From Candidatus Omnitrophota bacterium (GTDB lineage: Bacteria; Hinthialibacterota; Hinthialibacteria; Hinthialibacterales; JAKPRU01), in contig JAKQSI010000022.1 of the NCBI GenBank assembly GCA_029570205.1, positions 1 to 64,000 of the forward strand: DNA of 64,000 bases, read 5' to 3'. The notes beneath the pieces were generated by a model that worked only from the letters and a program-made list of their open reading frames with translations, searched no databases and was not told the origin of the DNA. Made by a program: the position numbers and the translations under genes. Position 1 is the stretch's first letter. Every line of letters begins with the position of its first letter. This document shows positions 5,230 through 56,019 of this stretch, piece after piece.

Positions 5230-5257
5230 ATTAACCGGCATAAGCACTGATTCGGAA

Positions 5258-5755
5258 TCAGAATTCTTCGTCATCCTCCTCGTAATCGTCTTCATAATCC
5301 TCATCGAAATCTTCCTCGTCTTCCTCTTCGTCGTAATCATCCCCGAAGTCTTCCTCTTCGATCAACTCTTCTTCCTCCTCAAGGTCTTCCTCTTCCTCCT
5401 CCTCTTCCTCTTCCTCACCCTCCTCCTCTTCCTCCTCCTCACCCTCGTCTAAATCTTCATACTCCTCATAATCGTCTTCAAATTCCTCCTCCTCCTCTTC
5501 TTCCTCTTCCTCAAAGTTCCCGTAATCGTCCTCGTCTTCCAGCCCGCCATAGTCGTTGTATAGCTCTTCGGGGTTGTAAGACGGATCATCGTCATCTTCC
5601 CAACCACATTTGGGAACCGGCAGAGCGTCGATGGAGACACAAATCAGGATGGGAAGGCGATGGGGGACAGAACTCCCCAGGATGCCCGGTCCCCTGAGTT
5701 CGGCGACCAGAAATGACCAGACATTGTCGTTCTCTGCAGCATGGTTTACAAACAT
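5258..5755 (-). CDS. Small protein with a long hyperacidic low-complexity tail
   Basis: The 165-residue product has an ordinary N-terminal 50 residues with hydrophobic patches (WSFLVAEL, LPILICVSIDAL) and two cysteines. The remaining roughly 110 residues are mostly Glu and Asp with Tyr and Phe interspersed and several runs of 5-10 consecutive Glu. No catalytic motif is seen. A GGAG 8 bases before the ATG, a possible promoter at 5857-5884 and a good terminator at 5187-5229 argue that it is a real gene. The tail is expected to be disordered and strongly anionic; possible roles include ion or basic-protein binding, but none is shown. Confidence 0.65.
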   Translation of the reverse strand: MFVNHAAENDNVWSFLVAELRGPGILGSSVPHRLPILICVSIDALPVPKCGWEDDDDPSYNPEELYNDYGGLEDEDDYGNFEEEEEEEEEEFEDDYEEYEDLDEGEEEEEEEGEEEEEEEEEEDLEEEEELIEEEDFGDDYDEEEDEEDFDEDYEDDYEEDDEEF

Positions 5756-5856
5756 TGATTCAACTCCATTGGCTCCGTGAAGAATTGTATTTAAGCCGGA
5801 CAGGCCGAGACCCGATCCGGAATCTTCCTTATATCACATCGACTGAATGCGCCCAA

Positions 5857-5884
5857 ACTATATCGATTCGAACACCCGAAACAA
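5857..5884 (-). promoter_or_regulatory. Possible promoter for the hyperacidic protein gene
   Basis: On the minus strand TTGTTT (5879-5884) and TATAGT (5857-5862) are separated by 16 bases, about 100 bases before the ATG at 5755. Each hexamer resembles the sigma-70 consensus but neither is perfect. Confidence 0.35.
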
Positions 5885-5914
5885 TCCTAGTCCTGCCATA
5901 ATTTGAAAACAGAT

Positions 5915-6838
5915 TCAAGAGTAGATAATGCACAGCACAAAAGCCAGCCACAGAGCGAAATTAACCATCAGGGGCTTGTCACGCAAGAGCAGATCCGCGG
6001 GATTGCCACCTTCCTGTCTCCGGTAGACTAGAAATTGATACCGCAGCAGCCCATAAATGACAAATGGGATGGTCAATTTCAGTCCTCCGCCCAAGCGAAG
6101 CGGGGTGGTAACTTCCCGATCCAGCGTATAAAGCGAATAGCAAACAAGGGTGGCCGCTGTCAAGACAGAGATCAGCTGATCGAGAAACTCAATCGGGTAT
6201 TCCTCCAGAATGGCGCGATGGTTGGCGGCGGCATCTTGCAGCAGCGCCAGCTCATGACGTCGCTTGCAGAACGCCAGAAACAATGAGATGAGCAGGGCAC
6301 ATAAATACAACCAATCCGACATCATCGCGCCGATGGCAAACGCCCCGGCGAAGGTGCGAAGCACGAATCCGGCGGCAATCGACATTCCATCCAGCAAGAC
6401 AGCCGACTTCAACCAGAAGGAATAAGCCACATTGACCACAATATAAGTCAGTCCGATGGCCAGGAACCGAATATCGAACACCACCAGGGAGAGCAGAATC
6501 GCCAGGCAGAGAAGTACACAGGAGGCAACCAATGCCGCTCGGATGGAAAGCCGTCCCGACGGCAGAGGCCGGCGGCGCTTCTGGGGGTGGAGTCGATCCC
6601 GGTCGATGTCCACAACATCATTGAGGAAATAAACGCTGGAAGAGAAAAAGCAGAAGATAAAAAAGGCTGCCAACGTCCGAGAGAACGGCCCGACACTGAA
6701 CAGGCCATGCGAAAACACCAGCGGGGCGAACACAAAAAGATTTTTGATCCACTGCTTAATGCGGGCCGTTTCCAGCAGAGAGGCAAGCAAGACATTCCAA
6801 CCGGCAGCGTTATCGGATGAGTTCGGCATGTTCCTCAC
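5915..6838 (-). CDS. UbiA-family prenyltransferase, decaprenyl-phosphate phosphoribosyltransferase-like
   Basis: The 307-residue polytopic membrane protein begins with RIKQWIKNLFVFAPL and carries the Asp-rich motif NDVVDIDRD (residues 73-81) followed by HPQKRRRPLPSG. This combination is typical of the DPPR synthase branch of UbiA (Rv3806c relatives), which transfers 5-phosphoribose from PRPP to a polyprenyl phosphate as the first step toward lipid-linked pentoses. About eight hydrophobic segments follow. The start is GTG at 6838, overlapping the GNAT stop as GTGA; an ATG at 6829 is equally possible. Lipid-linked sugar use fits the other envelope glycan genes in the window. Confidence 0.8.
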   Translation of the reverse strand: MRNMPNSSDNAAGWNVLLASLLETARIKQWIKNLFVFAPLVFSHGLFSVGPFSRTLAAFFIFCFFSSSVYFLNDVVDIDRDRLHPQKRRRPLPSGRLSIRAALVASCVLLCLAILLSLVVFDIRFLAIGLTYIVVNVAYSFWLKSAVLLDGMSIAAGFVLRTFAGAFAIGAMMSDWLYLCALLISLFLAFCKRRHELALLQDAAANHRAILEEYPIEFLDQLISVLTAATLVCYSLYTLDREVTTPLRLGGGLKLTIPFVIYGLLRYQFLVYRRQEGGNPADLLLRDKPLMVNFALWLAFVLCIIYS

Positions 6839-7353
6839 GAGTCAATCGAACGGGGTATATCGTGCCACATGATAGTCAGGAATTCCCGACAGCCGACTTT
6901 CTTCCAGAAAGAATATCCCTTTTGATTTTGTGGAGAAACATTGAGCTGAATAACCTCAATGCCGCGCCGTTTGAACCAGCGCCGGGTATGCTCCCACATT
7001 TGTCGGCCAATTCCGCCTCGCTGACAGACTGCTTCGACCGCCATTTCGGAAATGAATCCGTACCGACCCAGCGCAAAAACCGGCGGATTATTGAGGATCA
7101 TGGCATTTGTGTACCCGACAATCCGTCCCTCTGTCTCGGCCACGAAGACTGCCATGTCGTAATTCTCCAGACTGGATCGGAGGTATTCTTCGTAAGCCGC
7201 ATCATTTCCAATCGCGAGTTCAAAGCGCGGGTCCAACGAGAGATGATACGCCATCATTTCCTGCCAGAGTTCCCGGACTCGCGGAACATCTTTCAGTTTC
7301 ATTCGACGAACAGAAACGAGGGGACTTGTTCCGGTCATAATGCTCGCGATCAT
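6835..7353 (-). CDS. GNAT-family N-acetyltransferase
   Basis: The 172-residue protein is a single GNAT domain. The acetyl-CoA pyrophosphate loop is QRGGIG at residues 111-116, preceded by the beta-4 strand ISEMAVEAVC and followed by a helix ending KRRGIEVIQLNVSPQN. Such enzymes move an acetyl group from acetyl-CoA to an amine; the acceptor is unknown. The ATG at 7353 has no clear ribosome-binding site; an ATG at 7338 would give a slightly shorter protein. The stop overlaps the start of the UbiA-family gene, so the two form an operon, although no functional link is obvious. Confidence 0.8.
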   Translation of the reverse strand: MIASIMTGTSPLVSVRRMKLKDVPRVRELWQEMMAYHLSLDPRFELAIGNDAAYEEYLRSSLENYDMAVFVAETEGRIVGYTNAMILNNPPVFALGRYGFISEMAVEAVCQRGGIGRQMWEHTRRWFKRRGIEVIQLNVSPQNQKGYSFWKKVGCREFLTIMWHDIPRSIDS

Positions 7354-7512
7354 ACGGAGACGGCTTTTCGCCTGTCAAGACTGCGAATCAGTTGATAAAC
7401 GCCGTTCGGAAACGAATCCTTGCCCAGGGGAACCGCATGAGGTAGAGTGAGGCCGACAGAAGGAAGGGTTTCCTGAAGTCGAGAACACGGACAGCATTTT
7501 GGGAGTGTGATT

Positions 7513-8193
7513 ATGAGAAGAGCAATGGTAAAGATCGGAATCGGGGCACTGGTGGCGGCGGCCGTAGCGATCTGTGCGCAGCCAAGCTCCGCGGAAGAGA
7601 AGGCCGAGCCGGCAGAGGAACCGGACGAAGTGGCGATTTTGGACACGACGATGGGGACGATTGTGCTGGAGTTTTTCCCGGACGTGGCTCCGAATCATGT
7701 AAAGAACTTCAAGAAGTTGGCCCGTGACAAGTTCTATGATGGGACAACCTTTCACCGTGTGATTCCGGAATTCATGATCCAGGGCGGGTGTCCGAAATCG
7801 AAGGATGACGACCCATCCAACGACGGGACCGGGGGACCGGGCTGGACAGTCAAGGCGGAATTCAACAGCCGTCCGCACGTGCGGGGCACGCTTTCAATGG
7901 CGAGGTCGGCGGACCCGGACAGCGCGGGAAGTCAGTTTTTTATCTGTGTGGCCCGTGCGCGACACTTGGATGGGCAGTACACCAATTTCGGTCGGGTTAT
8001 TGCCGGGATGGATGTGGTGGATAAGATTGTGAAAGTCGCGCGGGACTCCCGCGACCGGCCGCTGGAGAATGTCACCATTCGCTCGGTGAAAATTGTGCCG
8101 CGAGCAGAGTGGGAAGAGTCAAAGGAGAAAGAAGAAAAGAAGGAATCGGCTCCGTCCGAAAGTCAACGGAAAGAGGAGGGGGCAAAAGGATAA
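7513..8193 (+). CDS. Exported cyclophilin-type peptidyl-prolyl cis-trans isomerase
   Basis: The 226-residue protein has a signal peptide (residues 1-27, ending PSSAEE), then a cyclophilin domain. Diagnostic stretches are YDGTTFHRVIPEFMIQGG, the SMARS segment with GSQFFI, and YTNFGRVIAGMDVVD. These contribute the catalytic Arg and the proline-binding pocket. It should isomerise Xaa-Pro bonds in exported proteins. The C-terminal 30 residues are Lys/Glu-rich. ATG at 7513 is preferred because GGGAG lies 7 bases upstream; a GTG at 7507 would be too close. It lies just before the SRP RNA gene. Confidence 0.92.
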   Translation: MRRAMVKIGIGALVAAAVAICAQPSSAEEKAEPAEEPDEVAILDTTMGTIVLEFFPDVAPNHVKNFKKLARDKFYDGTTFHRVIPEFMIQGGCPKSKDDDPSNDGTGGPGWTVKAEFNSRPHVRGTLSMARSADPDSAGSQFFICVARARHLDGQYTNFGRVIAGMDVVDKIVKVARDSRDRPLENVTIRSVKIVPRAEWEESKEKEEKKESAPSESQRKEEGAKG

Positions 8194-8510: not shown

Positions 8511-8566
8511 CCCATCGACAGGCACAGAGGCCTGTCCCACCAGTGGGCCGGGCGTTTCTGCCTGGC
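8511..8566. repeat. Two adjacent dispersed palindromic repeats
   Basis: The first unit is GACAGGC-ACAGAG-GCCTGTC followed by CCACCAGT, identical to the units of the array at 22417-23010. The second is GCCGGGC-GTTTCT-GCCTGGC. The same pair in the same order, with the second degenerate, closes the array near fmt, so the two move or spread as a composite. Confidence 0.8.
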
Positions 8567-8657
8567 AAAGAAGGGCGGGAGAGGAAAGAATGCTTTGTAA
8601 GGGCAATTCAATTTCAAGAGACCCGGTTATGCCCGGTCCATGAGGTCAGAATCGTTT

Positions 8658-13398: not shown

Positions 13399-13470
13399 GA
13401 CCCCACCCCGGCCGTGCTCGTGAACGCCAAGAACCCCACCCCGGCCCTCCCCGTAAACGGGGAGGGAGAA
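13399..13470. repeat. Dispersed GC-rich palindromic repeats
   Basis: Two copies of a CCCCACCCCGGCC unit lie in tandem. The second continues into CCTCCCCGTAAACGGGGAGG, a strong hairpin also found at about 55868-55908. They lie between the convergent pilin gene and the membrane protein gene and could stop transcription from either side. Confidence 0.75.
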
Positions 13471-18942: not shown

Positions 18943-20232
18943 ATGGATCATCCACGAATGTTGTTCTGTGATCGGTTCGGTCAGATTTATGACGAACCAC
19001 GACTTGCGGCAACTGCGCGATTGGGCGTGCATCCGATCGTGCCCGAACCGGAGGACTGGATACCGCTTCCGAAAGGAAGCGACATTTTTTCGCTGCCGGA
19101 TCGTACGCCGGTGGGATGGCTTGAGGGTCGGGGAAGATTCCGGGGCGGCTCCAGGGATACCTGGGCGGTCAGCGCATTCACCCCACCGGGCTATGTGCGT
19201 TCCCATCTGCCGAACGGACGCCCTCAGCCCTCGGCGGACCCGTTGCCGCTGTGGGCTTATTCCGCTGCCGGATGGCGAGACGAGGGGTTTTATGTCACGG
19301 CGTTTCCCATCGAGCAGAACCCGAAGGGCGATCTCGCCGAATTTGATGAGGAGACCATCCGCGAGCGGGTTCGACAAAAGCTGGATGAATCCCCCGAGAA
19401 CCGTCTGCTGAATCACCTGGCACATTGTGCGTTACAGAACAACTGCCTGGCAGCAAAAAACTATTTTCTTGGGAGGTGGGAAGCGGGGCTGCCGGTTTCA
19501 CGCGAGTGTCCGTCTTCCTGCGAAGGATGTATTTCGAACCAGCCTGCGGAGAGCCTCGTTCCGGCCTCCCACGCGCGGATTGCATTCCGACCCACTCTCG
19601 AAGAAGCGCTGGAGGTTATTGTGCCTCACCTGGAAGAGGCTCCTCTTGCGATGGTCAGTTTTGGTCAGGGATGCGAAGGGGAACCGCTTTGCGAGGATGA
19701 ATTCCTGGAAGAGCTGATTTGTGAGGTGCGTCGCCGGACTTCGCGCGGGACAATCCATCTCAACACAAACGGATATGCGCCCGCCAAACTGCAACGTCTG
19801 GCAAAAGCGGGACTGAATAGCGTGCGGATCAGCATCAACAGCGTTCGGAAGGATTATTACCACCGATACCACAAGCCACAGGGATACACCTTTGAGGATG
19901 TGGAAACCTCCGTGCGAGTGGGTGTGGCCGAAGGACTTTACGTGTCGATCAACTACCTGATTTTCCCCGGTTTAACGGACCACCAGGAGGAGATCGACGC
20001 ATTCACAAGGTTCTTGGAGAGAACGGGGACACACATGGTGCAATGGAAGAATCTCAATATCGATCCGGATATGTATATTTGCTGCCTGGAATTGGAGAGT
20101 CTTTCTCGGTCAGAAGGGATGCGGACAGCCGTGGACACCATCCGTCACAGGTTGCCGCAGGTGCGGTTCGGGTATTTTAATCCACCCCGTGAACAATTTG
20201 AGGAAAGCCTGAAAAATGGTGGGGCGAAGTAG
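18943..20232 (+). CDS. Radical SAM protein with a long N-terminal domain, unknown function
   Basis: The 429-residue protein has the [4Fe-4S]-binding triad CxxxCxxC at Cys189, Cys193 and Cys196. The radical SAM barrel follows: MVSFGQGCEGEPL (GGE-like SAM site), HLNTNGYAP, SVRISINSVRKDYYHRYH and INYLIFPGLTD. About 190 residues precede the cluster and resemble no domain known to me. GGGAG lies 5 bases before the ATG. It is divergent from uppS, 199 bases away. Substrate is unknown; the extra cysteine pair CC near residue 375 could belong to the active site. Confidence 0.82.
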   Translation: MDHPRMLFCDRFGQIYDEPRLAATARLGVHPIVPEPEDWIPLPKGSDIFSLPDRTPVGWLEGRGRFRGGSRDTWAVSAFTPPGYVRSHLPNGRPQPSADPLPLWAYSAAGWRDEGFYVTAFPIEQNPKGDLAEFDEETIRERVRQKLDESPENRLLNHLAHCALQNNCLAAKNYFLGRWEAGLPVSRECPSSCEGCISNQPAESLVPASHARIAFRPTLEEALEVIVPHLEEAPLAMVSFGQGCEGEPLCEDEFLEELICEVRRRTSRGTIHLNTNGYAPAKLQRLAKAGLNSVRISINSVRKDYYHRYHKPQGYTFEDVETSVRVGVAEGLYVSINYLIFPGLTDHQEEIDAFTRFLERTGTHMVQWKNLNIDPDMYICCLELESLSRSEGMRTAVDTIRHRLPQVRFGYFNPPREQFEESLKNGGAK

Positions 20233-20325
20233 ACCGTGCAGTTGACGTTTGCTGTTTCAAGTCTTAATGTGGTGAATAGAAAAGGGGAGTGGGCATGAGC
20301 CGGGAAATGGGGCTATCAGTCGGGA

Positions 20326-21432
20326 ATGCCGAATCCCGGGACAATAATCAGTCACGGATCTGCCATGCCTCCAGAAGATTCCATCAAGTCACCGGACCCC
20401 ATCCTGGCTGTCCTGTACGAAGTCCAGGTTCATAACTCATCCTTTCGGCAATTGACCGGTGTGGATGACCCGTGGCAGCTGAACCGGGCTCGGATTGAGC
20501 GAACCCGGGATCGGATGGCGCGAGAGGATCGGATTGCACGGGGGCAGTATCCGGGAAAAGACATTTCCTGTATTGCATGGACGGATGGGGCATTCTGGCT
20601 CCTGCCGGAAGGGGTGCAGAAATACGCGGAAACCATCGATCGCAACCGTTCCCTGGCAAACGGGAAGACTGTTCAACCGATTTGGAAAATGACTCTTCGG
20701 GAGTTGCTCTTGCAGCACACGGCAAATCTCCGCCAACTGGTGTTGTCGGTGGCGTATGACCTGGTGACCCTGGAGGCGTTGAAAGAGAAACTTCCCAGCG
20801 ACCATGCGATGCTGAAAAAGGAATTCGAGCGATGTGAGCAGATCGTGGGGGACTTGGTGGAGGAACTTCTCAAGGAGCGGGAACGTCTGGGCAAGGTTCT
20901 TACAGAGAATGTGGAGTTATATGAGCGGACACTTATTACGGAACAGATGCTGAGACGAGGGGATATCTCGGAAGAAGCGCTGGGGTACACCATGGAGGAT
21001 CTGCGTCGCGCCCAGGATCGTGTTCGCGATTTATGCCGGCAGGAACTGAATGTGTATCAACATGTTCTCAACGTGTCGAGGGGCAGAATGCAGGAGGGAT
21101 TGAGGACTGGGGAGCAAACGCAACTGACCCGTACCAGCCGATGGGATTATGCCTTCCACCAGTTTGAAGAACCACCGGAGGGTTTCGTGGGCTTTGCCAT
21201 GCTGGTTAACCATGAGAGCAAAAGACTTGCCGCGATTGTGGCATCCAGAGAAGAAGAACTGGGACCCTCTGAGGAAGGCAAGGAGCTGCTTGACCTGTCG
21301 AGAAAACTGGACGCTTCTCCCGAATCGAAAGAAGTTCCTGCAGAAGAAGAGCTTGCTCAAGGGACCTCACCGGGAGAGGTCAAAAAGAAGGTTGTGCATC
21401 GGATGGCAACAGCCGAACGGCATGAGCGATAG
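20326..21432 (+). CDS. Coiled-coil protein of unknown function
   Basis: The 368-residue soluble protein has no signal peptide. Its centre (about residues 120-265) is strongly helical and charged, typical of a coiled coil. An SCIAWTDGAFWLLPEGVQKY stretch precedes it, and a globular FHQFEEPPEGFVGFAMLVNHESKR segment follows before an acidic tail. Conserved enzyme motifs are not seen. The start may be 20326 or an ATG at 20365; neither has a strong ribosome-binding site. It converges on fmt with an 11-base gap. Confidence 0.6.
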   Translation: MPNPGTIISHGSAMPPEDSIKSPDPILAVLYEVQVHNSSFRQLTGVDDPWQLNRARIERTRDRMAREDRIARGQYPGKDISCIAWTDGAFWLLPEGVQKYAETIDRNRSLANGKTVQPIWKMTLRELLLQHTANLRQLVLSVAYDLVTLEALKEKLPSDHAMLKKEFERCEQIVGDLVEELLKERERLGKVLTENVELYERTLITEQMLRRGDISEEALGYTMEDLRRAQDRVRDLCRQELNVYQHVLNVSRGRMQEGLRTGEQTQLTRTSRWDYAFHQFEEPPEGFVGFAMLVNHESKRLAAIVASREEELGPSEEGKELLDLSRKLDASPESKEVPAEEELAQGTSPGEVKKKVVHRMATAERHER

Positions 21433-21443
21433 GTTACTCTCGT

Positions 21444-22394
21444 TTATCCGATTTCCCCCAACCGTGTTCCGCATTCCAATCGATGTCCGCGCAAAAAAAC
21501 ATCGACAGTCATGGCTTTCTTTCCGGCGGGCTGGAGTTCCAGGATTTCCAGGACACCGTTTCCGGTACTCACACGAATGGTGTTGAACGATGTATGCACG
21601 ACGGTTCCCGGAATTTCGTGGGAGATTGCATAAGGAACCTCGGTGCGCAGGATTTTCCAGATTGTTCCCTTGCAGAATGTGCGGGCACAGGGTTCCGGGG
21701 CGAGAGCGCGGACCTGATTATGGAGATCCGTTGCCGGTTTCGACCAGTCAAGGATTTCATGTTCGGGGCGAATCAGCCTGGCCCAAGTGACCTGACTCTC
21801 ATCCTGCGGATTTCGGGGAGCCGTGCCGGCGTGCACATCCAGAACGGATTGGAGCATGAGGTCCGCTCCCTTTCGGGCCAGCCGTTTGGAGAGGGAACCG
21901 TAGTTGTCATCCGGCCGAATCGGTTCGGATTCCTGGTAAATCAGGTCGCCCGCATCCCACTCTTCTGAAAGGTACATGGTGGAGTTGCCTGTTTCGGTTT
22001 CGCCGTTCATCAACGCCCATTGAATCGGAGCGGCCCCGCGATATCGCGGAAGAAGAGACGGGTGGAGATTGAGACCTCCTTTCGGAGGGAGTTTCAGCAT
22101 GTGGGAAGGGACTTTTCCCGCGTAGGCGACCACGACGATGATTTCGGGGGCCGCTTCCCGAATCCAGGGAAGAACCGCCGGTTCATCAAGAGACTCCGGC
22201 TGAAGGACCGGGACCCCGTGCTTTATTGCAAGCGCTTTCACAGGTGGAGGCAGAATCCTGTGCCCACGACCACGCGGGCGATCAGGTTGGGTTACAACGC
22301 CCCTGACCTCGACAGATGGACTCTCGATCAGCCTCTGAAGAGTCGGACAGGCAAACTCGGGTGTACCGAAGAAAATAATGGGAATCACGGACAC
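21444..22394 (-). CDS. fmt: Methionyl-tRNA formyltransferase
   Basis: The 316-residue protein begins VIPIIFFGTPEFACPTL and carries the catalytic and folate-binding stretch NLHPSLLPRYRGAAPIQWAL with EEWDAGDLIY; Asn, His and Asp are all present. A C-terminal OB-like domain follows. It formylates initiator Met-tRNA from 10-formyl-THF. The GTG at 22394 is chosen because AGGAG lies 5 bases upstream and the length is normal. The frame stays open upstream for another 242 codons through a 33-bp tandem array, but that part is not fmt. The usual partner def is absent here. Confidence 0.93.
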   Translation of the reverse strand: MSVIPIIFFGTPEFACPTLQRLIESPSVEVRGVVTQPDRPRGRGHRILPPPVKALAIKHGVPVLQPESLDEPAVLPWIREAAPEIIVVVAYAGKVPSHMLKLPPKGGLNLHPSLLPRYRGAAPIQWALMNGETETGNSTMYLSEEWDAGDLIYQESEPIRPDDNYGSLSKRLARKGADLMLQSVLDVHAGTAPRNPQDESQVTWARLIRPEHEILDWSKPATDLHNQVRALAPEPCARTFCKGTIWKILRTEVPYAISHEIPGTVVHTSFNTIRVSTGNGVLEILELQPAGKKAMTVDVFLRGHRLECGTRLGEIG

Positions 22395-22416
22395 AGCATC
22401 TCCTGAGAAAGTTCGC

Positions 22417-23010
22417 CCATCGACAGGCACAGAGGCCTGTCCCACCAGTACATCGACCGGCACAGAGGCCTGTCCCACCTGTACATCGACAGGCACAGAG
22501 GCCTGTCCCACCAGTACATCGACAGGCACGGAGACCTGTCCCACCAGTACATCGACAGGCACGGAGACCTGTCCCACCAGTACATCGACAGGCACAGAGG
22601 CCTGTCCCACCTGTACATCAACAGGCACAGAGGCCTGTCCCACCAGTCCATCGACAGGCACAGAGGCCTGTCCCACCAGTCCATCAACCGGCACAGAGGC
22701 CTGTCCCACCAGTCCATCAACAGGCACGGAGGCCTGTCCCACCAGTACATCGACAGGCACAGAGGCCTGTCCCACCAGTACATCAACCGGCACAGAGGCC
22801 TGTCCCACCAGTCCATCGACCGGCACAGAGGCCTGTCCCACCTGTACATCAACAGGCACAGAGGCCTGTCCCACCAGTCCATCGACCGGCACAGAGGCCT
22901 GTCCCACCAGTCCATCAACCGGCACAGAGGCCTGTCCCACCAGTACATCGACAGGCACAGAGGCCTGTCCCACCAGTACATCGACAGGCACAGAGGCCTG
23001 TCCCACCAGT
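22417..23010. repeat. Tandem array, 18 copies of a 33-bp palindrome-bearing unit
   Basis: Each unit contains GACAGGC-ACAGAG-GCCTGTC, a 7-bp inverted repeat, followed by CCACC(A/T)GT and a variable CATCGA, CATCAA or CATCGACC joint. Eighteen units fit 594 bases exactly, with substitutions scattered among copies but no length change. Read on the minus strand, each gives an 11-residue repeat VGQASVPVDVL or a close variant. There are no unique spacers. One isolated copy lies at 8511-8536. The array ends 22 bases before the fmt start. Confidence 0.95.
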
Positions 23011-23011
23011 A

Positions 23012-23076
23012 GGCCAGGCGGCTCTACCTGAAGGATGCTCGTGATCAGGAACCGGGGGCAAGATGCCCCCGCTCCC
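23012..23076. repeat. Two further dispersed palindromes after the array
   Basis: At 23012-23031 lies a degenerate CCAGGC-GGCTCT-ACCTG unit like that at 8547-8566. At 23054-23070 lies GGGGGCA-AGA-TGCCCCC followed by GCTCCC, the class also seen at 43595 with different stem bases. They fill the gap to the URO-D family gene. Confidence 0.65.
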
Positions 23077-24213
23077 TTATTTCCCTGCGCGCTCCAGCCC
23101 CGGTACGTCGATCGTCTCAATCCCGAATATTTCTTTTTTGCATTTCATATAATACAGGTAATTCTCATAATCGACATTGGCGGGGACTCGGTGGTCCACA
23201 TGCGGAATAAATCCGCCTTCGGCGACAACAGGTTCCAGGCGTTTCCATTCCGCCAGGGTCTCTGATTTGGATTCCAACTTGTGTTTGTTATATCCGCCGA
23301 TCAGCAGGAGGTCCTTGCCGTATTCTCGACGAAGCGCAACCGGGTCCGTACCGGCATGGACCTCCACAGGGAACATGCAGTTGTACCCCGCTTTCATCCA
23401 GATCGGCACGACCGGACAGATATTGCCGTCGCAATCCGTATAGATGACTGTAACCCCGTGTCTGCGGAGAAGGTTGGCGATGCGCCGATAGCGCGGGTCA
23501 AGAATCGAGCGGAAAACCTGCGGCGAGATCATCGGGCCGTGATTGAAACAGATATCCTCCCAGCCGCAGGCGACATCAATCTCAACTTCTTTCAGCAGAG
23601 GCTCGATGACCGAGATGATCAGGTTGCATAGATGTTCCACCATTTCCTCCACCAGATCGCGGTCGTCATAAATGAGATAGCAGATTTGTTCAAAGCCGGT
23701 CCAATTTCGAAGTACCCCGAATAAGGAGCCGATGTAGATAGCCACGGCTTCCTGCGAGGCACGTGCATCCGCTTTCACCCGATTGAGATCGTAGTCAAAT
23801 CGGCTTGGATCGCGGGGATCGAGACGTTCCTTGAAAGCCTGCCAAGTCCGGCGGTCCTTGATCGGGAATTCGATATAGTGCGGTATGGAGGACCCGCCGT
23901 CGGTATTGACCTCAGCGATCACGCCGTCCTCATATCGTACGATGCGGGTCCGTGGACGCTCTTCGAGGATTTCATAGGAGAAGGGCGGATAAGGGTCCAT
24001 CCGGTTCGGCAGACAATGAAAATGCTCACAGCCGAAGTACCGTTCGACCGAATCATTGTCATGCAAGTGTTTCGGCAGCCCCTGCTCATGCCATTTCGGA
24101 AAGCACTCACCCCAATAGCCGAACTCCAGGTGGGGAATGCGATCCACGCTCTGGTAGTGCATCCAGCGTCGAAACCGTTCCCGTGGAGTCATTAAAACAA
24201 CAGATTGGGACAT
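23077..24213 (-). CDS. Uroporphyrinogen decarboxylase family protein
   Basis: The 378-residue protein matches the URO-D superfamily. It opens with TPRERFRRWMHYQSVDRIPHLEFGYW, then shows IGSLFGVLRNWTGFEQICYLIYDD and WEDICFNHGPMISPQVFRSI, with YTDCDGNICPVVPIWMKAG and LLLIGGYNKHKL near the end. Several changes from HemE, including a His/Cys-rich C-terminal half, place it with the methyltransferase-like or uncharacterised branch rather than haem synthesis. The start at 24213 lacks a strong ribosome-binding site; an ATG at 24192 is possible. No partner corrinoid protein is adjacent. Confidence 0.8.
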   Translation of the reverse strand: MSQSVVLMTPRERFRRWMHYQSVDRIPHLEFGYWGECFPKWHEQGLPKHLHDNDSVERYFGCEHFHCLPNRMDPYPPFSYEILEERPRTRIVRYEDGVIAEVNTDGGSSIPHYIEFPIKDRRTWQAFKERLDPRDPSRFDYDLNRVKADARASQEAVAIYIGSLFGVLRNWTGFEQICYLIYDDRDLVEEMVEHLCNLIISVIEPLLKEVEIDVACGWEDICFNHGPMISPQVFRSILDPRYRRIANLLRRHGVTVIYTDCDGNICPVVPIWMKAGYNCMFPVEVHAGTDPVALRREYGKDLLLIGGYNKHKLESKSETLAEWKRLEPVVAEGGFIPHVDHRVPANVDYENYLYYMKCKKEIFGIETIDVPGLERAGK

Positions 24214-24347
24214 GGCGGAGGATTCTCACTTTCCATTGAACAGGATTGAAAATGAATGCTCAATTCAAACAGAATGCCGGGGAAGCACCAAGCTTCCTCG
24301 GCGTATTGCTCCGCCGGCAAGACGATTGAAAGATCGGGAAGAGGAGA

Positions 24348-24743
24348 TCAGCCTGGAAGTTTGTCCAGGTCGACACGGACTTTTGTCAGACCCTGGCGGA
24401 CAAATCCCAGCCGTTCCGCGGCGCGGTAAGAAACATCAATGACACGTCCGCGAACGAAGGGTCCCCGATCATTGATGCGGACTTTTTCGGTGCGACCGTT
24501 TTCCAGGTTGGTGACTCGTACCCTGGAACCGAACGGAAGTGTGGGATGGGCAGCAGTCATCGCGTTCATGTTGAACAGTTCACCGCTGGCGGTCTTGTGC
24601 CCGTGGTGTTCCTTCCCATACCAGGATGCGAGTCCGTACTCGGGGAATTTGGTCCCCGCAACACGCTTCGTGCTGCCGGCGCACGAAACCATAAGCAGGC
24701 CCAAACAGCAACATAGAACGGTTTTGGTAAACGAATACGACAT
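24348..24743 (-). CDS. rlpA: RlpA-like lipoprotein with double-psi beta-barrel
   Basis: The 131-residue protein has a lipoprotein signal with lipobox LMVSC, the lipidated Cys being residue 21. The RlpA double-psi beta-barrel follows: GLASWYGKEHHGHKTASGE, AAHPTLPFGSRVRVTN and RINDRGPFVRGRVIDVSYRAAERLG. The catalytic-type Asp of NDRGPF is present. RlpA proteins are septal lytic transglycosylases acting on denuded glycan. No SPOR domain is attached, so this is the short form. AGGAGG lies 8 bases before the ATG at 24743. Confidence 0.92.
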   Translation of the reverse strand: MSYSFTKTVLCCCLGLLMVSCAGSTKRVAGTKFPEYGLASWYGKEHHGHKTASGELFNMNAMTAAHPTLPFGSRVRVTNLENGRTEKVRINDRGPFVRGRVIDVSYRAAERLGFVRQGLTKVRVDLDKLPG

Positions 24744-24949
24744 GGTATGAACCTCCTGGTCCATCCCCATTGCCCGGTGAAGAAACATGACAGAAAACCG
24801 GCTGTTTACGGGACTCCGTCCCCGCAGTCGATCCGCAGACAGATATTATACTATCTGTAACTTGGAGATTTGTCAATATCGGAGGTGGGTTCTTCAGAGT
24901 CGCCCGCAGAGGATAATGAGACAAATAGGACCAACGGAGATGAATCGGA

Positions 24950-25258
24950 TTACGCTGAATTGGAATGCCCGTTGTGATGGACACTTGGGGATGCGGCAAG
25001 GACTTGGCGTAGGATTTCCAGCTTCTTGACCAAGTCCTCCCAGACGGCGGTTGTAATGGGATACCCGATCGGTCCTTTGCCCTGCTCGACTTCCTGAATC
25101 TCATTCCGCATGTTCTCCAGGAACCGTGGAAGGTTACTGACGGTCAGCCATGGGGAAAGTTTGATGGGGCCGGTAATGTTGCCTTTCTCCCGAAGCCCCC
25201 GCTCCACATCGATCAGGAGCTGATGGACTCGCCGGATTCCGTCGCTCTCAAAAGGCAT
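24950..25258 (-). CDS. Small protein of unknown function
   Basis: The 102-residue protein is mostly helical with a central GPIKLSPWLTVSNLPRFLENMRNEIQ split by a turn. It has no signal peptide, membrane segment or known motif. GGGAG lies 8 bases before the ATG, which supports translation. It sits between the membrane protein gene at 25304-26890 and rlpA on the same strand, 45 bases after the former. Confidence 0.55.
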   Translation of the reverse strand: MPFESDGIRRVHQLLIDVERGLREKGNITGPIKLSPWLTVSNLPRFLENMRNEIQEVEQGKGPIGYPITTAVWEDLVKKLEILRQVLAASPSVHHNGHSNSA

Positions 25259-29149: not shown

Positions 29150-29380
29150 GGGATTTTTTTTGAATGGCCGTATTGTGTTCGGTCACAGCCGCCACCCCGA
29201 GGGTCTTGCGAGATCTGGTCAACCCCCACTTGGCTTCCGACGAAATTCGGGGGAGGAATCTCTCCCACAAGCCTGGGAGAGACATAGAGGGCGGCCCGTC
29301 AACGTGGGTAGGAAGAAAAGCGGCTGCAAGGTACGCTTAGAGAACATTGAAATCGAGTTGCCGGAGGAACAGGACCCAAA
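29150..29380. repeat. Intergenic region with dispersed C/G palindrome repeats
   Basis: At about 29219-29291 lie two palindromic units of the class CCCCCACTT...GGGGGAGG and TCTCCCA...TGGGAGAG, degenerate relatives of those at 48873-48937 and 51537-51612. A ribosome-binding site for the next gene lies just before 29381. Nothing else is recognised in the gap. Confidence 0.6.
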
Positions 29381-48701: not shown

Positions 48702-49164
48702 AGGGAACTGAAGCACAGAACTCACTGGCAAGATTCTCACCGGAAAGATGCTGGCGCCACCCTTTTTTTCTCGGCGACCTTTCTCCCGGAGGGAGAGTGT
48801 GAAGGGGGTGGCTCCGCTTAAGAGGGAGTATGAGAATTGGGGGGATAAGTGACGGAAGATCAACCGCCTCTTTATCTCTCCCAGACTTTGGGGGAGAGGT
48901 CCCTCCCCCGAAGATCGGGGGAGGTCAGGTGGGGGTTGACCGGATAGCACAAGACTCCTCGGCGTGACAGTTATGACCGAGCTTTCTTAGGAGCGAAGCG
49001 TGGCAATCTCGTTGTTGGCGCGTACAAACAGGGGATCGCCACGTCGCTTCGCTCCTCGCGATGACGTGACTTTGTAAAGGCAATTCAGTTACAGGACACC
49101 GGAGGGAATCGAGCGGCAATCGTATTGAAGAGACAACTATTCCAAGGATGATTCGGAATCGAAG
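48702..49164. repeat. Repeat-filled gap between gspE and gspF
   Basis: The 463 bases hold several dispersed repeats: a degenerate GGCAAGAT...GGCGCCACCC unit near 48727-48760, CTCCCGGAGGGAG near 48785, CCCAGACTTTGGGGGAGAGG with CCTCCCCCGAAGATCGGGGGAGG at 48878-48926, and an inverted pair of GGAGCGAAGCG (about 48991-49000 and 49042-49053) ending CGCGATGACG. No coding frame is supported. Confidence 0.75.
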
Positions 49165-51506: not shown

Positions 51507-52343
51507 ATGGAACGATACGGTGTTAAAAGAGTCAACCCCCACTTTATCTCCCCCAATCTTGGGGGAGAGGAGGCGATGTGCGTCTCTCCCGATGTTGAGG
51601 GAGAAGGCTGCGAGTTCGTGCCGGCAGCCATGGTGGGGGGAGGACGCTCCTCATCCCGACCTTCTGCCGGAGGGAAAGGGGGAGGTTTTACGCTGGTGGA
51701 ATTGCTGCTGGCGGCCACCCTGGGGGCGCTGGTAGTGACGGCTGCCTTTGCGTCCATCGCGCTCGTTCTGCGCGGGTACAAGCAGTACAAGAACCGTTCC
51801 GATGCTTATGAACCGGCCCGTGCGGCGCTGGCACGGATGAATCGTGAAATCTCTTCGGCTTTTCTTTCGCCGCATACCGGGGGAACACGGTTTGTCGGAG
51901 TACCTCAAATGGTAGAAGGGATCGAACTGGACCGATTGACTTTCATTTCTGTTGTGAACGATCCCCAGCGTTCCCTGGGAGGCGAAAGCGATTTGTGTGA
52001 GATCGAGTACTTTATCGATTCGGATACGGAGACCCCGGAACGCTGGCTGCAAGTGCGGTATGACCCGACACCGGATGAAGATCCATTCACCGGAGGTGTC
52101 TGCCATCTGCTTGGACCGAATGTTGTATCGATGACGCTGTATTATTTCGACGGCGAGTTCTGGCTGAACGAATGGGATTCCACGGAACAGATTCCGATGG
52201 CGGTCAATATCACCCTTGGCGTGCTGAAGCGCGATGCCAAGTCCTTGGAAGAATTGGAATTGTTCTCCACTATCGCGTATCCGATGGCTTATCGGGATGC
52301 CGGGTCGGAGGAAACAAATGTCGAAACGACGAGCCAAACATAA
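51507..52343 (+). CDS. gspJ: Minor pseudopilin GspJ-like with an exceptionally long leader
   Basis: The 278-residue protein has its pilin motif GGG, then FTLVELLLAATLGALVV, only after 60 residues. GAGGAG sits 4 bases before the ATG at 51507, giving this long leader. A GTG at 51495 would be longer still; an internal ATG at 51630 would give an 18-residue leader but has no ribosome-binding site. Most of the leader is encoded by palindromic dispersed repeats. The mature part looks like GspJ, with RAALARMNREISSAF. Pilin leaders are usually under about 30 residues. Confidence 0.8.
   Translation: MERYGVKRVNPHFISPNLGGEEAMCVSPDVEGEGCEFVPAAMVGGGRSSSRPSAGGKGGGFTLVELLLAATLGALVVTAAFASIALVLRGYKQYKNRSDAYEPARAALARMNREISSAFLSPHTGGTRFVGVPQMVEGIELDRLTFISVVNDPQRSLGGESDLCEIEYFIDSDTETPERWLQVRYDPTPDEDPFTGGVCHLLGPNVVSMTLYYFDGEFWLNEWDSTEQIPMAVNITLGVLKRDAKSLEELELFSTIAYPMAYRDAGSEETNVETTSQT
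51537..51690. repeat. Palindromic repeats inside the gspJ leader coding region
   Basis: CTCCCCCAATCTTGGGGGAG at about 51551-51570, TCTCCCGATGTTGAGGGAGA at about 51584-51603, and CTTCTGCCGGAGGGAAAGGG at about 51661-51680 belong to the classes seen in intergenic gaps. Here they lie in the reading frame between the start codon of gspJ and its pilin helix. Confidence 0.75.
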
Positions 52344-55772: not shown

Positions 55773-56019
55773 GGTTGGCCTCCCCCCCCCAGCCCCCCTC
55801 TCCAAGAGTGGAGAAGAGGGAGGGGAGCCTCACCCCCGGCCTCCTCTCCAAGGATGGAGAGGGGGGAAGACCCCACCCCGGCCCTCCCCGTAAACGGGGA
55901 GGGAGAAGAGACCGCACTCCCTGAGCGCCTGTGCGAGAAAGGGGAGGAGCCTTACCCCGGGCCCCGTCTGCAAGCGTGGAGAGGGGGGGAGGGGAATAAT
56001 TACACGAAGGGACGTTGAG
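55773..56019. repeat. Repeat-filled gap between gspL and gspM
   Basis: About 247 bases hold consecutive C-run/G-run palindromes: CCTCTCCAAGAGTGGAGAAGAGG and CCTCTCCAAGGATGGAGAGG types at 55795-55863, the CCTCCCCGTAAACGGGGAGG hairpin at about 55879-55902, and a degenerate CGTCTGCAAGCGTGGAGAGGGG at 55968-55988. They would interrupt a single T2SS transcript. Confidence 0.75.

Follow-up and report, generated by a model that had tools for sequence, protein, structure and literature searches.

A tandem array before fmt in a Candidatus Omnitrophota bacterium as a probable one-arm expansion of a REP element from a RAYT-associated family

The fmt gene of a Candidatus Omnitrophota bacterium (GenBank assembly GCA_029570205.1) lies downstream of a URO-D-like gene oriented in the same direction, and most of the gap between the two is taken up by a tandem array of short palindromes. 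The locus was analysed within a stretch of 64,000 nucleotides (contig JAKQSI010000022.1, positions 1 to 64,000), hereafter the window. The host genome (G000) was compared with those of two congeners, G001 and G002. The features concerned are the following:

21444..22388, minus strand: fmt, methionyl-tRNA formyltransferase, 314 aa, GTG at 22388 (PF00551, E 1e-37; PF02911, E 1.5e-24)
22400..22421, minus strand: element flank of 22 bp, GATGGGCGAACTTTCTCAGGAG, which carries the fmt Shine-Dalgarno sequence AGGAG
22418..23011, minus strand: array of 18 A-type REP copies, head to tail (TRF, unit alignment, REP scan)
23009..23032, plus strand: one C-type REP arm, GTAGGCCAGGCGGCTCTACCTGAA, opposed to the first array unit; together they form an intact C/A pair, with the array continuing from it (REP scan)
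23053..23075, minus strand: second dispersed palindrome, unrelated, GGAGCGGGGGCATCTTGCCCCCG, where the URO-D-like gene ends (copies: 7 in G000, 37 in G001, 2 in G002)
23077..24213, minus strand: URO-D-like gene, 378 aa, upstream of fmt (PF01208, 24.8 bits against a cut-off of 23.9)
8517..8566: C/A REP pair belonging to the same family, not amplified, 50 bp, between ORFs ending at 8193 and starting at 8640

TRF reports a period of 33, 18.0 copies, 93% matches and 0 indels at 22418-23011, which is exactly the 594 bp (18 units of 33 bp) given in the original prediction; the copy number is that of one assembly, a 131-contig draft, with one assembly per species throughout. On the minus strand the unit reads TACTG, the tag GTGG, the palindrome GACAGGC-CTCTGT-GCCTGTC and GATG. 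Its core 22-mer is matched 19 times, against 0 in shuffled windows. The unit alignment contains only six variable positions, each with two states, so the copies do differ by point changes only, as had been proposed, and the tag is GTGG in 18 units out of 18. All the arms have one orientation apart from the terminal C arm at 23009-23032. The REP element itself measures 24 nt, with a 7-bp stem and a 6-nt loop, within the 20 to 40 bp expected of the imperfect palindrome of a REP, and a single unit is predicted to fold, as single-stranded DNA, into a 7-bp hairpin. The original prediction had credited every unit with such a hairpin. This holds for the seven units whose stem is complete and, with wobble pairs, for five more; in the remaining six a stem pair is broken, without compensation. 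A CRISPR-like reading of the array was rejected, variable spacers being absent.

The array ends in, or beside, the 5' leader of fmt. The ribosome-binding site (AGGAG, 22404-22400) and the GTG codon at 22388 come just past the last unit, where they had been placed, and give fmt a good start with a Shine-Dalgarno sequence of its own. The AGGAG lies inside GATGGGCGAACTTTCTCAGGAG, and this 22-bp stretch also follows the A arm in 18 further clusters of the sample (up to 5 mismatches), so that in this species the ribosome-binding site of fmt stands in sequence shared with the element. A comparable CTTTCT-GGAGG stretch precedes fmt in the congeners too, so this takeover may have gone in either direction. 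A search of the fmt strand around the array for sigma-70-like promoters, a consensus that may not be the host's, gave none; the fmt transcript therefore probably starts within the array or upstream of it. A search of Rfam up to E 0.1 gave no match to a known RNA regulatory family in 20000-25000.

The unit is not confined to this locus. Allowing up to three mismatches, its core 22-mer has 293 copies in the host genome, and 225 with up to two, while reversed-pattern controls gave 0 matches; the dispersal announced in the original prediction is thus real. The single copy cited there as an example does exist, at slightly different coordinates (8517-8538 rather than 8511-8536), and it is one half of the 50-bp pair at 8517-8566. 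Both loci of the window are extragenic. Two types of REP make up the family: type A, with the stem GACAGGC/GCCTGTC, and type C, with the stem GCCAGGC/GCCTGGC. A-type copies (up to two mismatches) number 225 in the host, 61 in G002 and 26 in G001, and C-type copies 501, 165 and 43, respectively, so that each type exceeds in the host the 100 copies per genome used to define REPs. Among 275 tagged palindromes the tag is GTAG in 184 and GTGG in 73, in keeping with the GTAG-like tag of known REPs. The outer stem pair covaries between the types (C-G in 139, A-T in 128, T-A in 4, unpaired in 4). Changes that preserve the palindrome are thus the rule family-wide (271/275), but not inside the fmt array with its six broken stems. 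The A type has 0 copies in the 38 other relatives searched, which range from members of the same order to more distant ones, and the C type is absent from both of the two other relatives searched. When about 85,000 species genomes were scanned, the exact 25-mer turned up at only four loci outside the genus, two of which are near a RAYT homologue (68% or 48% identity).

The arrangement of the REPs was examined in 64 sampled stretches of the host genome, which contain 387 REPs in 61 clusters; these were picked through a search for the A core, and the proportions that follow are accordingly biased rather than those of a random sample. A bare C/A pair with its tags inward makes up 23 of the 61 clusters, and 15 of these 23 have the same 26-bp offset. 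An inverted REP pair is thus the dispersed unit, as in REPINs and BIMEs, with arms of different types. Among the 29 clusters with at least four REPs, 15 are head-to-tail arrays of one arm that end, on one side, in an intact pair, which is the architecture found at fmt. The dominant periods of the arrays range from 25 to 40 bp and are divisible by three in 10 cases out of 22. C-arm arrays at unlinked loci have common spacers (AGCTACCCA, AGCTAA, A), while the spacers of A-arm arrays, that of fmt included, are mostly private. Many C/A pairs in the sampled flanks also share longer flanking sequences, CCGGTGATTGGGTGAAGAAAGCGTGCTTCCCGCCCTTCTTT on the left and GATGGGCGAGCTTTCTTAGGAGGAGCCGCCCGGAGTCTGCGAAGGGC on the right, which suggests that a larger dispersed repeat, perhaps an older one, often encloses the REP pair.

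Three Y1_Tnp genes were found in the host genome, and one of them, on contig C89 (46017-46526), is adjoined by A- and C-type REPs. Its product, of 170 aa, scores 86.6 bits against a cut-off of 80 with NF047646, 'REP-associated tyrosine transposase' (RAYT), and 33.8 bits against a cut-off of 23 with Y1_Tnp. The HUH motif (H81-V-H83) is nearly invariant among its homologues, and the tyrosine of YISKNP is aligned in most of them; the sole match in the PDB is a weak one to the E. coli TnpA_REP, 4er8 (E 0.033). The gene is surrounded by 20 A-type and 2 C-type REPs, 12 A and 1 C on one side and 8 A and 1 C on the other, where uniform scatter would put about 0.07 REPs in the 1.4 kb concerned. The arms beside the gene are tagged GTAG. 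G002 has a RAYT that is 90% identical, apparently in the same gene neighbourhood, and more distant RAYT homologues from other genomes have different tagged palindromes of their own on their flanks, for example GTGGGACCGGCGCCCTCGCCGGTC. Judged from its sequence, the C89 RAYT with its cognate REPs fits the association that defines REPtrons (PMC2817692). The original prediction had not recognised the units as REPs with a transposase of their own.

The two other Y1 transposase genes have repeats of different kinds around them. A second REPtron (C48, 79988-83266) encodes a RAYT scoring 96.4 bits with NF047646, with arrays of another palindrome, GCGGGAGCGTCAGCTCCCGC, around it; the third transposase (C51, 62120-65452) is of the IS200 type (NF033573, 67 bits), and the tandem repeats adjoining it carry GTCCGAAGGACGGAC palindromes. 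Outside the host, RAYT-like sequence was seen in frame within a long ORF in a Syntrophaceae MAG (5230-7998), where the ORF has DUF1156 and D12-methylase matches and the REPs are read as protein, and on contig C679 of G002, where the ORF has a D12-methylase match. In a Latescibacterota MAG (5968-6801), a RAYT is followed downstream by protein sequence similar to these two cases. This looks like a recurrent in-frame insertion of REPtrons into a DNA methylase gene across phyla.

The history of the fmt site can be followed in the congeners. In G002 the gene order is the same and Fmt is 94% identical, and the gap holds two tandem full elements of 118 bp, each made of left flank, C arm, A arm and right flank. 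In G001 (Fmt 82% identical) the gap contains no REP; it holds an apparent left flank and a different dispersed repeat. Copy number, which it had been suggested to compare among relatives, thus differs in all three species: 18 units, two full elements and none. The junction between successive fmt units occurs 17 times in this array, that is at every junction, and nowhere else in the host genome, with 0 occurrences in G001 and 0 in G002. Since the junction is private to the locus, the array grew in place, which agrees with the growth by unit duplication originally proposed. A further dispersed repeat (GTCAACCCCCACTT...CCCCCAATCTTGGGGG) lies in the window at 29203-29270, 48888-48955 and 51531-51565, and similar sequence is present in the fmt leader of G001.

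A REP family with a linked RAYT, the C/A pair as its dispersed unit, the expansion of one arm at fmt and the absence of the expanded unit from G002 are directly supported by these observations. With high confidence, the array arose when one arm of a REP element was expanded in tandem, the element belonging to a family associated with a RAYT that the same genome encodes. A pair of REPs, made of a C and an A arm with tags inward, 2 bp apart and within longer flanks, would have been present at the site before the split from G002. The A arm would then have been duplicated head to tail, up to 18 copies, in the present lineage, each unit also taking in 5 bp from the centre of the pair and 4 bp from the right flank. 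The RAYT presumably disperses the family by cleaving and joining the hairpin as single-stranded DNA, as suggested by its physical link to the REPs and by the known behaviour of TnpA_REP. Growth in place could be due either to the RAYT or to slippage or unequal exchange between hairpin-forming direct repeats. The latter is slightly favoured, because GTGG is the tag of all 18 fmt units, against GTAG in the arms next to the RAYT gene. The uniform GTGG also counts against the expansion of a RAYT-associated element as a whole, given the requirement for GTAG in E. coli, where any change in this tetranucleotide abolished cleavage (PMC8266576). With the Marinomonas TnpA_REP, GTGG variants are still cut, at altered sites (PMC8266576).

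Among the competing explanations, the one that survives best sees the array as a cis-regulatory leader of fmt, in which 18 hairpins in the 5' untranslated region tune the stability or the translation of the transcript and the copy number is under selection. Nothing stands between the array and the fmt ribosome-binding site, itself in element-derived sequence, the fmt strand yielded no sigma-70-like promoter in the interval from array to gene, and the leader folds more stably than its shuffled versions (-335 against -309 kcal/mol, z -4.1). Stable folding is, however, expected of any palindromic array, whatever its role. Moreover, the same site carries two full elements or none in the congeners, the stem pairs broken in a third of the units are uncompensated, and similar arrays occur at many unrelated loci. 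Selection for such a role is therefore improbable, and any effect of the array on fmt, which is possible, would be incidental to the expansion of the REP element. We regard with equal reserve a broader scheme in which the RAYT, or replication past its substrate, would preferentially amplify one arm of an asymmetric heteropair and so produce anchored one-arm arrays. One of these would have taken over the fmt leader together with an element-borne Shine-Dalgarno sequence, making fmt expression dependent on array length.

It is quite unlikely that the copy number is an artefact of assembly. The genome is a draft of many contigs, a number of which end inside such arrays (C14, C19, C23, C79 and C99, for example). 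Yet at fmt the states of the six variable sites are combined in various ways from one end of the array to the other, both flanks are unique, and arrays of similar size are present at many other loci.

The original prediction had also considered that the array might be translated, as an 11-residue repeat (VLVGQASVPVD) fused to the N-terminus of Fmt or forming a separate peptide. The minus-strand frame is indeed open from 23120 into fmt, as stated there, REPs are read in frame within the methylase ORF of the Syntrophaceae MAG, and REP-encoded segments within proteins have been described (PMC3733652). The open frame is nevertheless uninformative, as five of the six frames are open through the array, and the periods of 12 of the 22 arrays are not divisible by three. 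Variation in the fmt frame, with 3 synonymous and 3 nonsynonymous changes (P 0.26), is as expected by chance and gives no coding signal. The only long start is a TTG that overlaps the URO-D-like gene, with no start signal evident, whereas Fmt has a good start and Shine-Dalgarno sequence of its own. The upstream open frame runs to about 250 codons in the host, against 65 in G002 and 25 in G001, and is not a conserved extension. The array as protein was thus rejected by the frame, period and substitution tests, and we give this reading almost no credence. An ordinary short tandem repeat, born of replication slippage with no tie to a transposase, would agree with a unit private to the locus whose copies differ by point changes only; as a full account it is refuted, and hardly credible, since the core recurs hundreds of times elsewhere, paired with the C arm and flanking the RAYT, and slippage may account for the growth of the array but not for the origin of the unit.

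As an expanded arm of a REP element, the array can be set beside known systems. GTAG-tagged REPs with their RAYT/TnpA_REP, or REPtrons (Nunvar et al. 2010, PMC2817692; Di Nocera et al. 2013, PMC3733652), have in common with the present family a tetranucleotide tag followed by a short palindrome, hundreds of copies, inverted pairs, clusters, a RAYT flanked by the same REPs and a cognate palindrome for each RAYT. GTGG in place of GTAG is itself on record, in the GTAG-20 family of Opitutus terrae (PMC2817692, PMC3733652). What differs here is that two REP types form a fixed heteropair and that the host is a genus of MAGs. In Pseudomonas fluorescens SBW25 (PMC3116915), inverted REP pairs are likewise dispersed as REPINs, and there are ordered tandem arrays, including some of a single REP type; the pairs are spaced 71 or 110 bp and the largest tandem arrays have 12 REPs, whereas the arms described here are 2 bp apart, of two types, and only one of them is amplified. 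Enterobacterial BIMEs are also REP clusters, in this case mosaics with opposite orientations, in contrast to the fmt array, which has one orientation except for the terminal C arm. RPE and other REP-decorated genes (PMC3733652) contain palindromic repeats that can be read as protein in frame, while the fmt array is without sign of translation.

Tagged REPs, GTGG variants, linkage to a RAYT, REP pairs and tandem clusters have thus all been described before (PMC2817692, PMC3733652, PMC3116915, PMC8266576). The REP family, its host lineage, the fixed heteropair and the regular long one-arm arrays are new, the last standing in contrast to the reported scarcity of head-to-tail dimers. Among the papers searched there was no study of RAYT in Omnitrophota, and RAYT/REP systems are hereby extended to a poorly studied MAG lineage. 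The natural series at one orthologous site, from no REP through two full elements to an 18-unit one-arm array, is informative about the growth of REP clusters. In this species, moreover, the ribosome-binding site of a housekeeping gene stands in sequence shared with a mobile repeat. There is also a warning for annotation, as a REP array whose period is a multiple of three looks like a repeat protein or an N-terminal extension. Two other repeats of the window may be mentioned: an exact 38-bp repeat, ACCCCACCCCGGCCCTCCCCGTAAACGGGGAGGGAGAA, at 13433-13470 and 55870-55907, probably represents another dispersed family, and a low-complexity tandem repeat of the TCTTCC/TCCTCA type at 5265-5513 would, if translated from the minus strand, give an acidic stretch.
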